Source: Duncaniella muris
GTDB lineage: Bacteria; Bacteroidota; Bacteroidia; Bacteroidales; Muribaculaceae
Assembly: GCF_003024805.1 (NCBI RefSeq)
Contig: NZ_PUEC01000022.1
Coordinates: forward strand, 1 to 62,118
Direction of reading: 5' to 3'
DNA: 62,118 nt
Below the pieces are notes generated by a model. That model did no database searches. It was not told the DNA's origin and was given only the letters and a program-made list of their open reading frames with translations. Shown piece after piece: positions 14,589 through 40,218 of the stretch. Position 1 is the first letter of the stretch. The number at the start of each line of letters is the position of its first letter. A program made the position numbers and the translations under genes.

Positions 14589-14652
14589 AAAAAATTTCAT
14601 CCCTCCCCGCATTATCGCACCAAAACCGCCTCCACCCGGCCTTAACTTTGCA
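14589..14652 (+). promoter_or_regulatory. Shared virion-gene promoter module, copy A
   Basis: This 64-bp block is nearly the same as the block at 40155-40218 (minus strand) in front of the adaptor-portal genes: 54 of 64 positions agree with no gap. It contains AAAAAATTTCAT at its start, an invariant 15-mer ATTATCGCACCAAAA (14611-14625), then 17 nt, then the -7 box TAACTTTG (14643-14650). There is no TTTG at -33; the 15-mer occupies that place, which suggests an activator-dependent promoter. The leader 14653-14761 is C-rich with only 8 G in 109 nt. The sequence match is direct; the regulatory role is inferred. Confidence 0.8.
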
Positions 14653-14761: not shown

Positions 14762-15010
14762 ATGGAAACAACTCAGACACCCCCACCGAACCCCGACACC
14801 GCCTCACCTGCTGCAGCCGCCATCTCCGTTCAGCCCGAACCGGCTCCTGCGCCTTTGCCTGACACCGCTCCCTCATCCCCGCCACCCACGCGGCGCCACT
14901 ACACCCTCTGGGAACTCGTGCGCCACGAGGACCACGACCGTCCCGCCCCACAGTCCGACCCCACAGACTCCGTCCTCGCATCAATGCGTCCGAGCGCATG
15001 GCCCGACTGA
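14762..15010 (+). CDS. Small Pro-rich protein upstream of the capsid gene
   Basis: This is an 82-aa product with a Pro/Ala-rich, probably disordered first half (about 1-42) and a short conserved-looking C-terminal part (RRHYTLWELVRHEDHD, then SVLASMRPSAWPD). I chose the ATG at 14762 because it lies downstream of the module promoter; the frame opens further upstream, but that extension would start inside the ompA terminator. It sits 34 nt ahead of the capsid gene in the same transcript. By position it could be a scaffolding, decoration or regulatory partner of the capsid protein, but no family is recognised. Confidence 0.6.
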   Translation: METTQTPPPNPDTASPAAAAISVQPEPAPAPLPDTAPSSPPPTRRHYTLWELVRHEDHDRPAPQSDPTDSVLASMRPSAWPD

Positions 15011-15044: not shown

Positions 15045-16241
15045 ATGGAACCCAACATTCTCACCACCACCCTCTCAAATGAGATCTCACCCGAACTCCT
15101 GCGCAACGAAATCGACAGCCGCATTGTAAAAATCCGCCCCTCCTCCACCCCTCTTGACCAGATCTCACGCCTCGGCACCGCCCGCCACGCCGGCTCGATG
15201 CGAGTGGAATACTATTCGGTCGACACCAAGGAAGGCAGCACCAACATCACCGAAGGCAACCGCTCGCTGTCAGTCGAAACCGGCAAACAGTTCTCGATCA
15301 GAGTTGCCAACAGCGCCATCTTCTCCGAAACCGAAACAGTGCTGCTCCCCACCCTCTCCGTGACTACCGGCAGCTACAAAGGCCAGGCCCTCGTGGGCTA
15401 CATCACCGAAATCAGCGCCGACACCCTGACCGTCATTCCCGTCAACGCCGACAGCACTCCCGCCACATTCGACCTGAAAGTAGGAGATCCCGTGGTCCGC
15501 ATGGGCCGTGCCGCCCGCGAGCTCGACGTGCAGACCACCCAGTTCATCGCCCTCCCGCGCAAAGACTACAACTTCTGCCAGATCTTCAAAAGCCAGGTTG
15601 AAGAAAGTCTCTATCAGCGACTTGCCGACAAGGAAGTGGGCTGGGAATTCACCGACCAGGAAGAAGTGGCTATAATGGACATGCGTCTCGGCATGGAAAA
15701 ATCATTCCTCTTCGGCGCCCGCTCCCGCATCGAACTCGCAGCCACGGGTGACGAAGTCTTTCTCACCGGAGGCATCTGGAACCAGACCGACAACACCTTC
15801 ACCTACTCCCCTGCCGATTTCGACGAGACCGCCATTGTCAGGCTCGCCCGAAAAGCCTTCACCGGACACTCCGGATCGGCCCGCAAAGTACTGATAGCCG
15901 GCTCAGGACTAATCGAAGCCCTCAACACCTTCAAAGCCGTCCGCACCGTAAGCGCCACCGAGAAGAAAACCATCTGGGGCATAGACTTCCACCTCATAGT
16001 CACCAAATTCGGCACCCTCTACGTGCACCACTCCGAAGTCTTCGACCTATGCGGAATGCCTGACAACGGCATGGTCATCGACCCCGAATATCTCACCAAA
16101 TACAGCCATGTCCCCTTCTCGGCCGAGCGCATCAGCTTCCGCAAACAGGGGTTGCGCAACACCGAAGGAGTAGTCCTCACCGAAGCCTCCTGCCTTGTGC
16201 TCCGCCATCCCAACGCCCACATGCGCATCACCGCCCGCTGA
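15045..16241 (+). CDS. Phage-type major capsid protein (SU10-like, HK97 fold)
   Basis: This 398-aa protein resembles the SU10/DUF5309 type of major capsid protein. Family-like features are an early IRPSSTPLDQISRLGTARHAGSMRVEYYSVD segment (about 30-60), a helix-rich middle with VEESLYQRLADKEVGWEF and GMEKSFLFGARSRIE (about 185-230), the KVLIAGSGLIEALNTF region (about 285-300), WGIDFHLIVTKFGTLYVHHS (about 308-328), and a C-terminal RHPNAHMRIT stretch. It has no signal peptide. Base composition looks like neighbouring host genes. It follows the small Pro-rich gene and ends at a strong terminator (16261-16299). No protease, terminase or tail gene is adjacent. An encapsulin is less likely, because portal and adaptor genes share its promoter. 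Confidence 0.75.
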   Translation: MEPNILTTTLSNEISPELLRNEIDSRIVKIRPSSTPLDQISRLGTARHAGSMRVEYYSVDTKEGSTNITEGNRSLSVETGKQFSIRVANSAIFSETETVLLPTLSVTTGSYKGQALVGYITEISADTLTVIPVNADSTPATFDLKVGDPVVRMGRAARELDVQTTQFIALPRKDYNFCQIFKSQVEESLYQRLADKEVGWEFTDQEEVAIMDMRLGMEKSFLFGARSRIELAATGDEVFLTGGIWNQTDNTFTYSPADFDETAIVRLARKAFTGHSGSARKVLIAGSGLIEALNTFKAVRTVSATEKKTIWGIDFHLIVTKFGTLYVHHSEVFDLCGMPDNGMVIDPEYLTKYSHVPFSAERISFRKQGLRNTEGVVLTEASCLVLRHPNAHMRITAR

Positions 16242-21207: not shown

Positions 21208-24200
21208 ATGAAGATCAAATCTTTACTTCCTCTGACCACACTCTTAGGACTGATGTGGACAGCCGGAGTTTCGGCCACAGAAGTGACCGTAACGCTCAAC
21301 ACCATCAGCAAATCAATGACCGTGGTCCCTGCAGCCGGAGGCGAGACCGTAAACATCGGCGAGCCTTCAGCGGATTCAAACCCTGTCTACACCTTCAACT
21401 GCGATCCGGGCGACTACGTAATGAACCTCTTCGATGCCAAAGGTACTCCGACAGGCTCTATCTCCGTCTCCGTCTCAGGCGAAACCGACAATGTAAGGCT
21501 CTACAACATTTCGCTTTACGCTACAAACAAGACCGACGGCATCGAATGGCAGCTCGGCAAAGACTATGACGTTCCCTTTGACCGGATCAACGTATCCTCC
21601 CAGAAAGGCGAAAACCATCCGGTGACTCCTGTGGTCTATGCCAACAGCACCCGCAAGGTGATTACCTTTCCGGTTATAATCGGCGATTCATTTACCGCCA
21701 CCCTCTTCCCTTCAGGAGACTATGCCGAAGACTATGCCGAGGTCACAATAACACGGACCGTAACATTCGATGTCTCCGCGTCATGCACTTTCGAGCCCTA
21801 TGTCACTTTCTCTCTGACCGCGCCAAAGGATGCCGAAGTCAAAGTGGCTCAGAAGATCGGATCGCGCCACTACGTGCCTTTCACCTACTACGATCCGGCA
21901 ACGGCTGTCGAATCAGGCAACGACATGGTCTATACCTATCGTCTGCCCAAGAGCTCCAACTACAACTACCGCGTGTCACGTCCGGGCAGCATCACCAATG
22001 CCGGTATCTTTGACCCGTCAAAAGGCGACATCACTATCACAGACGCCCAACTCAACGCCTATCCGTCAGACTATTATAATCATGACGTGGCAGCCAACAG
22101 CGGCTACAACTATGCCGACATATATCTCAACATCAATCCGCAGGGGCATCTCCACATGCAGCCTGACAGCAAGTTCCACATCGTCAACCTGCGCACCTGG
22201 CAGCTGACCAACACCGTTACAGCCAACTATTTTATCGAACCCGACTATCACTACACCGTGCTCGGCACTGACTTCAAGCCCGACAATTCGGTGATCGACA
22301 TCACGACTGAAGGCCTCATCACCGCAAAGAAGCAAGGCACCGCAATTGTGCAGGTACGCTATGACGCCATGTCGGTCGATGTAGCCGGAGGCAATCTCTG
22401 GAGCTCGATCTGGGCTGAGAATGTCGGCACCTTCGTGGTCACTGTCGGCGACAAGGCCGAAGGAATCAGAAGCAACATGAAGCTTCCCTACACTCATGAA
22501 AACCGCACCGGCGAGATTGATGCCGAACATGATGTCTTCTACTACATGAAGGGTGAAGACGGTTTCGACTACACCTTCACCCCTGAAGGCGTGGCTTCCG
22601 TGAGCGTGGCCACTCCGCTTGTCGACCTTGAGAAAAACACCCTGTCGTATCCCAGTGGGTTCTCGACCGAAAAAGTCAGCAAAAACGCCGACGGCTCATA
22701 TACCGTCCGGCTGGCATTCGGACGCAACATCGTCTGTCTGACTGACGCCGCAGGCAACAGCGTCTACCAGGTAATGTCGGCAAAACCGGCCTCCTACAGT
22801 GTGTCCAAGGCCAAAGATGTCCGTAATGACAGCTACAACCTGCCCGGCGACGTCCTTGAGGTAAACTTCAGCGGCCTCTACCACAATGCAGGAAAGCTGG
22901 CCGCAATCTACAACCAGGGATGCTCTCCTCTCTATTCATCCATCCCTGAAGGCTATGACAGCAACAGCGTCAAAGGCTCAGGCGGCCAATACAATTTCCC
23001 CGTTCAGCAGAAAGTGACCGTAACACTCAAAAACGACCAGCAGCCCATCGATTTCGACCTCAGCGGCGGATGCCTGACCTTCGGCGGTTTCGGCGACAAG
23101 CTCGGCGGTCACCGCGACATAGACTATTTCACAGGCCGCAATCCCAACTTCACGGCTGCGTCTCAGTATCAGCTTTCCGGCGTTATTCCTGACGTATCGT
23201 TCAGAACCGATGCCTTTGCTGACGGCATGGAACTCTCCATGAGCCTCGAATTCGGCAAAAGTGCCACTCCCGTCTCACTCGCCGCCTGCAAACTGTTCCT
23301 CGGCGAAGAAATGACCGTCACAAGCTCTGACAAATCAATCGCCACCGTCGACAAGAACGGCAAAGTGACAGCCGTAGCTGACGGAAACGCCGTAATCACC
23401 TATGCCAATGCCGACGGCACAAAGAGATTCACCTGCTCTGTCGAGGTGTGGAGCATAAAAGTGGAAGGCATTGCCTTCAAAGACGAGGTTGTAGAAGCCA
23501 TTGCATCCACAAAGGGAACCCGCATCATCTCGACAGCCCTGATATGGACCCCGGCCAAACCCTCAAACCAGAATGTGACCTATGAACTCTCCAATCCTGA
23601 TGTGGTCAGTCTTAAGAACAACCGCTTATACACAATAGCCGGCAAGGCAGGAGAAACAGATGTCACAGTAACCACTGCTGACGGCGGCTATAAAGCCACA
23701 TGCCATGTCATAGTCCGTATGGCTCTCGAAAAACTTGCCTTTGAAGAATCAGCCGAAGAACTGACCGAGGGTGAAAGCCTTTCTCTTAAACCGGTCTACA
23801 CTCCTGAAAACACTGATTTCAAGGAACTCATCTGGGTTTCCACCAACCCTGAGATTGCAAGCGTTGATGAAAACGGCCTCGTCACTGCGCTTAAGGAAGG
23901 AACCGCGTCCATAAAAGCTACCTCAACCAAATATTCCTACATCAGCGCCACCTGCAATGTGACCGTCAAAGCGAAAGACCAGTCCGGAATCGAAACCGTC
24001 GGCATAGCCGGAGTGAAGGCCTATCCCAATCCGTTCACCGACTATATCATGGTGCAGACACCGGTTGCCACAAGCACGTCAGTCTATAGCCTGCAGGGAT
24101 CGCTGCTGATCAGCGCATCTCTGGAAGCCGGTCAGAACCGCATTGACACCTCGGCCCTCCCCTCCGGACTCTATCTTGTCCGCATCGGCTCTGAAACCGT

Positions 24201-24219
24201 CAAGATGATCCGCAAGTAA
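21208..24219 (+). CDS. B12-riboswitch-controlled secreted Ig-like (BIG2) protein with T9SS sorting domain
   Basis: This is a 1003-aa exported protein. A signal peptide (1-23, ...GVSA) is followed by beta-rich regions. Bacterial Ig-like (BIG2) domains are recognisable at about 355-400 (ITTEGLITAKKQGTAIVQVRY), 695-740 (IATVDKNGKVTAVADGNAVITY), and 845-925 (IASVDENGLVTALKEGTASIKA). The last 75 residues are a type IX secretion sorting domain (YPNPFTDYIMV...LPSGLYLVRI...VKMIRK). It is probably exported through the T9SS and displayed on or released from the surface. The cobalamin riboswitch upstream suggests a role in B12 capture, which no domain here proves. No TonB receptor gene follows. Confidence 0.85.
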   Translation: MKIKSLLPLTTLLGLMWTAGVSATEVTVTLNTISKSMTVVPAAGGETVNIGEPSADSNPVYTFNCDPGDYVMNLFDAKGTPTGSISVSVSGETDNVRLYNISLYATNKTDGIEWQLGKDYDVPFDRINVSSQKGENHPVTPVVYANSTRKVITFPVIIGDSFTATLFPSGDYAEDYAEVTITRTVTFDVSASCTFEPYVTFSLTAPKDAEVKVAQKIGSRHYVPFTYYDPATAVESGNDMVYTYRLPKSSNYNYRVSRPGSITNAGIFDPSKGDITITDAQLNAYPSDYYNHDVAANSGYNYADIYLNINPQGHLHMQPDSKFHIVNLRTWQLTNTVTANYFIEPDYHYTVLGTDFKPDNSVIDITTEGLITAKKQGTAIVQVRYDAMSVDVAGGNLWSSIWAENVGTFVVTVGDKAEGIRSNMKLPYTHENRTGEIDAEHDVFYYMKGEDGFDYTFTPEGVASVSVATPLVDLEKNTLSYPSGFSTEKVSKNADGSYTVRLAFGRNIVCLTDAAGNSVYQVMSAKPASYSVSKAKDVRNDSYNLPGDVLEVNFSGLYHNAGKLAAIYNQGCSPLYSSIPEGYDSNSVKGSGGQYNFPVQQKVTVTLKNDQQPIDFDLSGGCLTFGGFGDKLGGHRDIDYFTGRNPNFTAASQYQLSGVIPDVSFRTDAFADGMELSMSLEFGKSATPVSLAACKLFLGEEMTVTSSDKSIATVDKNGKVTAVADGNAVITYANADGTKRFTCSVEVWSIKVEGIAFKDEVVEAIASTKGTRIISTALIWTPAKPSNQNVTYELSNPDVVSLKNNRLYTIAGKAGETDVTVTTADGGYKATCHVIVRMALEKLAFEESAEELTEGESLSLKPVYTPENTDFKELIWVSTNPEIASVDENGLVTALKEGTASIKATSTKYSYISATCNVTVKAKDQSGIETVGIAGVKAYPNPFTDYIMVQTPVATSTSVYSLQGSLLISASLEAGQNRIDTSALPSGLYLVRIGSETVKMIRK

Positions 24220-40154: not shown

Positions 40155-40218
40155 TGCAAAGTTAAGACCGCAGGCAAGCGATTTTGGTGCGATAATACGG
40201 AGAGGCATGAAATTTTTT
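40155..40218 (-). promoter_or_regulatory. Shared virion-gene promoter module, copy B
   Basis: Read on the minus strand, this is the second copy of the 64-bp block at 14589-14652 (54 of 64 identical, ungapped). The invariant 15-mer lies at 40182-40196 and the -7 box TAACTTTG at 40157-40164, again with 17 nt between. The leader to the adaptor ATG (40154-40070) is C-rich with about 5 G in 85 nt. The module also lies directly upstream of the divergent bioB promoter, so one factor could touch both. Confidence 0.8.

Follow-up and report, generated by a model that had tools for sequence, protein, structure and literature searches.

The 64-bp block that precedes the capsid gene in the Duncaniella muris window (the whole 62,118-nucleotide stretch analysed here) is probably one copy of a regulon promoter. 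The regulon would be what remains, dispersed over the chromosome, of a phage that was domesticated and has since been inherited vertically; it is most likely a gene transfer agent (GTA). Muribaculaceae may carry, in other words, a tamed virus that could move bacterial DNA between cells.

Two promoter blocks and their operons

The sequence-only reading had described two similar 64-bp blocks on opposite strands of the window, one before a capsid gene and the other before an adaptor-portal operon (Table 1). Recomputation gives the same 54 identical positions of 64, ungapped, and no further 64-bp stretch on either strand of the window reaches at least 34 matches with the first block. The pattern ATTATCGCACCAAAA-N17-TAACTTTG occurs twice in the window at up to 3 mismatches and never in 100 shuffles; with gaps of 15-19 nt it is found exactly twice in the whole 3.27-Mb assembly (reversed control, 0). 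The supposed invariance of the 15-mer held only in part: ATTATCGCAC is kept in relatives, but the AAAA is usually TTTT or ATTT there. The conserved portion is shorter than 64 bp, consisting of ATTATCGCAC and the -7 box TAAcTTTG, 22 (rarely 21) nt apart. The primary sigma factor of Bacteroidetes recognises TAnnTTTG at -7 and TTTG near -33, according to the available part of PMC7366714. The -7 box of the module fits the first of these elements (logo of 122 sites, partly ascertained by the search pattern). Around the presumed -33 position, many genomes have a T-rich stretch after the core, often AAAA in G000, the window genome.

The downstream genes are those that had been claimed: an SU10-type major capsid protein (MCP) on one side, an adaptor-like ORF and a P22-type portal on the other. 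Neither Pfam nor PHROG gives a match for the 82-aa ORF before the MCP. The 179-aa ORF 5' of the portal is predicted to fold like podovirus adaptor/tail-ring proteins. Its AlphaFold model (pLDDT 92.7) finds its best PDB match in the phicrAss001 tail barrel (E 3.2e-4), with weaker matches to the SU10 and T7 gp11 tail adaptors; unlike the 179-aa protein, these are phage virion parts, and the TM-scores are only 0.3-0.5. By profile it also matches gp13 of phage BS-TP4 (E 4.7e-7, small database). Ten genes between the two operons were examined, and nine match host-looking families (including FKBP isomerases, cobalamin adenosyltransferase, a class I tRNA synthetase and QueG) while one matches none. 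Two ORFs without a match lie 3' of the portal, followed by host-type families such as HEM4 and TatD. The window also encodes, at 21208-24219, a 1,003-aa protein that combines Big_2 domains with a Por secretion tail.

Table 1. Positions in the window of the two promoter modules and the genes that follow them
Feature	Position	Strand	Basis or detail
Promoter module, capsid operon	14589..14652	+	core ATTATCGCAC 14611-14620; -7 box TAACTTTG 14643-14650
Proline-rich ORF, 82 aa, in scaffold-gene position	14762..15010	+	related short ORFs 5' of MCP in relatives
Major capsid protein (MCP), SU10/HK97 type	15045..16241	+	Pfam SU10_MCP 2.1e-55; PHROG major head protein 2e-10
Portal protein, P22 type, shortened, 425 aa	38256..39533	-	Pfam P22_portal 9.8e-10; PHROG portal 1.2e-26
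Predicted head-tail adaptor / tail-ring protein, 179 aa	39530..40069	-	AlphaFold fold comparison
Promoter module, adaptor-portal operon	40155..40218	-	core 40187-40196; -7 box 40157-40164

The module across genomes and a putative common regulator

The reduced pattern ATTATCGCAC-N22-TAACTTTG, searched at up to 2 mismatches, has 294 sites across the genus (27 genomes, each with 0 to 37), against 1 for the reversed pattern used as control. Sites are present in 23 of these genomes, and the window genome has 6 copies of the module at up to 3 mismatches. The site-less genomes (G001, G003, G006 and G018) carry diverged forms 5' of the MCP or portal where upstream DNA is available. In G008, 10 sites span 402 to 3,015 kb of one contig. 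Upstream of the MCP, a module score of at least 16/23 is reached in 20 of 30 loci vs 34 of 900 shuffled upstream regions, and for 3 of the 10 loci below this score no more than 201 bp of sequence is available upstream. Coordinates place a module site within about 0.9 kb on the 5' side of 19 of the genus's 26 portal genes. No site is listed at the portal of G001, G002, G003, G006, G011 (contig end), G018 or G023, and the sequence of the G002 portal region contains no module. The two-gene operon of the large terminase, TerL, follows a module (up to 2 mismatches) in 13 of the 20 loci examined, all 13 being among the 17 from the genus; in 10 of those 17, TerL has an M16-peptidase-like or rimP-like gene (named by eye) on its 3' side. 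No module is visible at the G000 TerL operon, which begins 164 bp from a contig end.

Downstream genes were classified for 125 of the 294 sites, picked genome by genome from 18 genomes; since certain MCP, portal and TerL loci were targeted deliberately, the class shares are not a random sample. The classes are the MCP operon (8), adaptor-portal (9), a tail-like protein with TerL (13), endolysin (8), holin (3, or 4 with site L227, left out of the 125), DUF6808 (2), a RepA-like ATPase (4), DUF6291-like genes (34) and others (44, including L350 of G019, an MCP operon truncated where its contig ends). The earlier proposal that copies before terminase, tail or lysis genes would establish a dispersed regulon is borne out in relatives, where the module lies 5' of TerL operons and of endolysin, holin and DUF6808 genes. 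Among the module-downstream genes of G000, holin and DUF6808 were not seen. The TerL of G000 is a terminase by PHROG (1.4e-22). The holin (PF05105) and the DUF6808 protein (3e-27) score above their Pfam cut-offs, the endolysin is an Amidase_2 by Pfam with additional PHROG support, and an AAA_25 Pfam match also occurs among the module-downstream genes. The tail-like protein matches no PHROG or Pfam family; its profile matches gp26 of BS-TP4 and one protein encoded by the C1 prophage (E about 6e-13, small database). No TerS, receptor-binding protein or injection protein was identified in this analysis.

Many unrelated downstream genes had been named as a sign against a regulon. Virion and lysis genes do follow the module, but so do a multicopy family and four housekeeping genes (one site each before gyrA-, dnaB-, fba- and xseA-like genes, named by eye), and some sites have no gene, so that the set is not exclusive to the virion. 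The multicopy DUF6291-like family scores below the 27.2-bit Pfam cut-off of DUF6291 (PF19808). Ten of 31 members match PF19808 at E up to 0.01 (best 6.5e-4), mean column identity over the 31 aligned members is 23%, and no solved structure is a convincing relative (best E 0.19). The RepA-like ATPase was rejected as a core component because of its patchy presence (10 of 61 genomes). Within the class of other sites, some precede a second repeated family (G022, G012 and L201 of G014, by eye), 4 of 5 copies in G021 stop at contig ends, and others have no gene or are aimed into a convergent gene. Near-identical copies of module plus small gene occur with the DUF6291-like family in G025 and with the second family in G022 and G012, those of G021 being mostly at contig ends. 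One orphan module (L072:5001-5040, minus strand; L358:966-1005, plus strand) is directed into an lpxB-like gene, convergent with it, at that gene's 3' end, with the same core in two species and an altered spacer.

The 34 DUF6291-like sites, the orphan sites and the near-identical copies in G021, G022, G025 and G012 would suit a mobile promoter or repeat that spread on its own, with the virion genes incidental. This explanation is highly improbable, as the same operons carry the module species after species and other genera place a different motif at the same position. Moreover, core and box are better kept between sister species than spacer and flanks, which bears on the earlier concern that conservation might not exceed that of ordinary intergenic DNA. 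At nine orthologous sites of G000 and G019, picked by pattern in both genomes and so favouring core and box, the core is identical at 90/90 positions and the -7 box at 72/72, compared with 171/198 for the spacer, 184/225 upstream and 199/225 downstream. The different motifs of other genera, common to MCP and TerL promoters by eye, are TAAATCGGAC...CGTCC in G029, AAAATCGCAGT in G036 and AATTCT(C)ACC in G033; the MCP and TerL promoters of G032 have no clear common motif by eye.

The 5 nt before the core change in concert. Within-genome identity of this prefix is 0.876 vs 0.474 in shuffled sets (maximum 0.525, 0/2000), and 0.848 vs 0.475 for the 48 virion/lysis sites alone (0/2000). The prefix is mostly YCCGC in G000 and G019, TTTGY in G005, G008 and G025, GCGAC in G009, G010 and G014, TTTTC in G020 and GCTAC in G007. 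Uniformity within genomes together with difference between them supports the shared activator or unusual sigma factor that the sequence-only reading had suggested, and such a factor probably acts at the sites. The concerted change would be explained most simply by a single factor co-evolving with them. The putative trans-acting factor, for which this analysis found no gene, would read ATTATCGCAC and the short species-specific prefix, at about -44 to -35 given conventional placement of the -7 box, and direct RNA polymerase to the ordinary Bacteroidetes box TAAcTTTG. With the primary sigma factor on the -7 box, a regulator beside or over -33 may supply the rest, in the manner of GafA at the promoters of RcGTA (PMC9638019). 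T4 MotA-type middle promoters have a good -10-like box and an activator motif replacing the upstream box; the module resembles them in layout only, as an analogy.

Long inverted repeats are centred just past the -7 box at L178 (17 paired bases), L368, L222, L213 and other sites. Inverted repeats over the box with a score of at least 9 are found at 8 of 34 DUF6291-like, 5 of 47 virion/lysis and 0 of 42 unassigned sites, and an inverted repeat serving as common operator was rejected as not general by these per-class counts. The sites concerned are some DUF6291-like promoters and a few virion promoters.

Presence, inheritance and integrity of the particle genes

MCP and portal were searched for in 61 genomes, 27 of the genus, 10 of other family members and 24 from outside the family. 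MCP matches occur in 39 (27/27, 9/10 and 3/24, respectively, one of the last being marginal) and portal matches in 38 (26/27, 10/10 and 2/24); the MCP is partial in G012, G024 and G026. Named records with the MCP are labelled Muribaculaceae, Duncaniella or Paramuribaculum, or bear older or broader labels (Porphyromonadaceae, Bacteroides, Barnesiella, Bacteroidales); one metagenome-assembled genome is labelled Staphylococcus. The two genes adjoin in 7 of the 9 family genomes of other genera that have both and lie on separate contigs in G028 and G030, and 33 of 48 named loci have an adaptor ORF directly 3' of the MCP. Most simply read, the particle genes were clustered first and then came apart in this genus.

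With the TerL of phage BS-TP4 as query, a diverged second TerL, besides prophage copies of at least about 980 bits, is found in 25 of the genus's 27 genomes (absent from G004 and G007) and in 8 of 10 other family members (absent from G027 and G031), partial in G003 and G024. A Terminase_6N (PF03237) probe was discarded, since it matched in 2 of 27 genomes and at neither location coincided with that genome's P0001-type TerL. The family-wide sample comprised 118 genomes of 20 genera at a completeness of at least 95%, queried with the G000 TerL. Any match, prophage-type copies included, occurs in 112 genomes and all 20 genera; 27 of these 112 have solely weaker, split, short or prophage-like matches, and G004, G031, G088, G103, G129 and G159 have none. 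Matches of at least 460 bits occur in 85 of the 118 genomes and in every genus except g40, g42 and g48 (17 of 20). This cut for the domesticated TerL was set after second copies had been seen at 313-386 bits in the same genomes; the odds given to the domesticated reading were left unchanged because the majority of the genomes and genera sampled retain TerL. Genus g48 has no strong TerL match and only weak, short or prophage-like ones, those in G086, G107, G120, G137, G141 and G153 being short or partial at 47-53% identity. The pattern looks as if the system were decaying there.

Inheritance was tested by distance correlations inside the genus. The rank correlation with host GyrA distances is 0.78 for MCP (20 genomes), 0.74 for TerL (15) and 0.60 for portal (21). 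Between genes it is 0.74 for MCP-TerL, 0.59 for portal-TerL and 0.49 for MCP-portal, and each of these values was reached by 0/2000 permutations. The wide presence is consistent with vertical descent. Capsid and portal are under purifying selection: dN/dS is 0.107 for MCP and 0.008 for portal between G000 and G019 (gyrA 0.023), and 0.033 and 0.038 between G006 and G018 (gyrA 0.012).

These data bear on ordinary decay, in which an old prophage was scattered by rearrangement and its promoters have yet to erode. Some genomes do have stops, splits or truncations. The TerL of sister species G019 is interrupted by two in-frame stops and divided between contigs, G091 and G092 have one stop each in TerL, the portal has stops in G021 and G022, and the MCP of G012 is split with stops. 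TerL is weak or missing in 33 of 118 family genomes, and in some species the pieces share one chromosome region. Nevertheless, all 20 aligned TerL sequences retain Walker A together with the acidic residues of Walker B and of the nuclease (motif III is altered in G001), dN/dS of capsid and portal is low, TerL is strong in 17 of 20 genera and the sites change in concert, which makes decay improbable as the general explanation.

A probable gene transfer agent and its relatives

The best phage matches are the Bacteroides temperate phages BS-TP4, BKO1-TP3 and BF1-TP2, with 34-37% identity for MCP and 30-32% for portal; the TerL and adaptor of BS-TP4 are homologous as well. Unlike the dispersed loci, these phages have a compact genome, and BS-TP4 carries an integrase and giant ORFs. 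A related prophage resides at G000:C1:1-69800 (L214, L168, L169, L215), with giant ORFs over 2,400 aa, a 668-aa portal, a 510-aa capsid and its own TerL. At up to 3 core mismatches, no module was found in the fetched C1 prophage pieces or in BS-TP4, and the single exact match in IMG/VR lies inside an unrelated ORF and is chance-like; derivation of the module from a resident phage was dropped on these grounds.

According to the available text of PMC9662315, GTAs are endogenized, often at multiple loci, mostly inherited vertically and encoded by a genome that one particle cannot take up in full, and they carry mostly random host DNA and deliver it to other cells. The virion genes described here are homologous to those of caudoviricetes. 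They are fully endogenized, in that the capsid, portal, TerL and lysis genes each occupy a locus of their own surrounded by host genes, and are mostly inherited vertically, co-diversifying with the host (distance correlations in the genus; TerL survey of the family). By site coordinates the loci are tens to hundreds of kb apart. As the particle genes are spread over the chromosome, self-movement as a phage is unlikely, and packaging of host DNA is the likely reason for their upkeep. From this gene set we infer co-expression, an activator, particle assembly, packaging and transfer. The ancestor would have been a podovirus-like temperate phage related to BS-TP4, BKO1-TP3 and BF1-TP2. Muribaculaceae would have domesticated it early, and in this genus its late genes would have separated, each piece retaining its promoter. 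One signal would switch on the dispersed genes together: capsid with the ORF in scaffold position, adaptor with portal, tail-like protein with TerL and, under the same signal, holin, endolysin, the DUF6808 protein and the multicopy DUF6291-like family. A short-tailed particle would assemble and be filled with host DNA by TerL via the portal; lysis through the holin, the endolysin and the DUF6808 protein would release it, presumably from the few cells that make the agent.

A domesticated particle might instead do another job: it could kill cells in the way of PBSX, or its capsid could interfere with related phages. Related prophages inhabit some of the same genomes, the search identified no receptor-binding or injection protein, and PBSX packages host DNA yet kills (PMC7667829, in its available part). 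However, the retention of TerL, portal and lysis genes speaks for DNA packaging and no result singles out killing or interference; such a role is unlikely. A more ambitious version of the GTA reading, with a functional family-wide agent exploded into a genome-wide regulon, would have the DUF6291-like and RepA-like proteins, which resemble phage replication proteins, amplify host DNA at many places for packaging; it is conceivable, though doubtful.

RcGTA has a siphovirus-like main cluster and a capsid lineage different from the present one, and most loci of the Muribaculaceae genus, unlike those of RcGTA, hold one or two genes. The two are alike in vertical inheritance, in genes at several loci (five in RcGTA, Rhodogtaviriformidae) and, given the putative factor, in a single activator (GafA in RcGTA) at several promoters (PMC9662315 and PMC9638019, as far as their available text goes). 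FpGTA of Faecalibacterium, as described in the accessible portion of PMC12946183, likewise belongs to a gut bacterium and has short-tailed-phage-like genes, with TerL-portal-capsid plus a separate locus containing lysis genes. It differs in its Gram-positive host and its two compact operons about 125 kb apart, and that portion describes no common promoter set; FpGTA particles have been shown, whereas those of Muribaculaceae are putative. The literature search, with preprints and most subscription papers outside its scope, found no description of this regulon and no paper on a GTA in Muribaculaceae.

Muribaculaceae rank among the major families in the gut microbiota of mice. Of the 186 mobilised contigs with transduction patterns in particles from the mouse gut, 83 belong to Bacteroidetes, and 46 contigs show generalised-transduction or GTA-like patterns, a figure taken here irrespective of phylum (PMC7667829, same part). 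If working, the system would be a dedicated gene-exchange vehicle in Muribaculaceae, not found in print, and one explanation for these patterns. It also offers a setting in which to watch a regulator and scattered sites co-evolve, and the promoter motif can be used to find further members. In G057, from another family of the order, homologues of MCP, portal and TerL lie on three different contigs, perhaps a second dispersed set outside Muribaculaceae.
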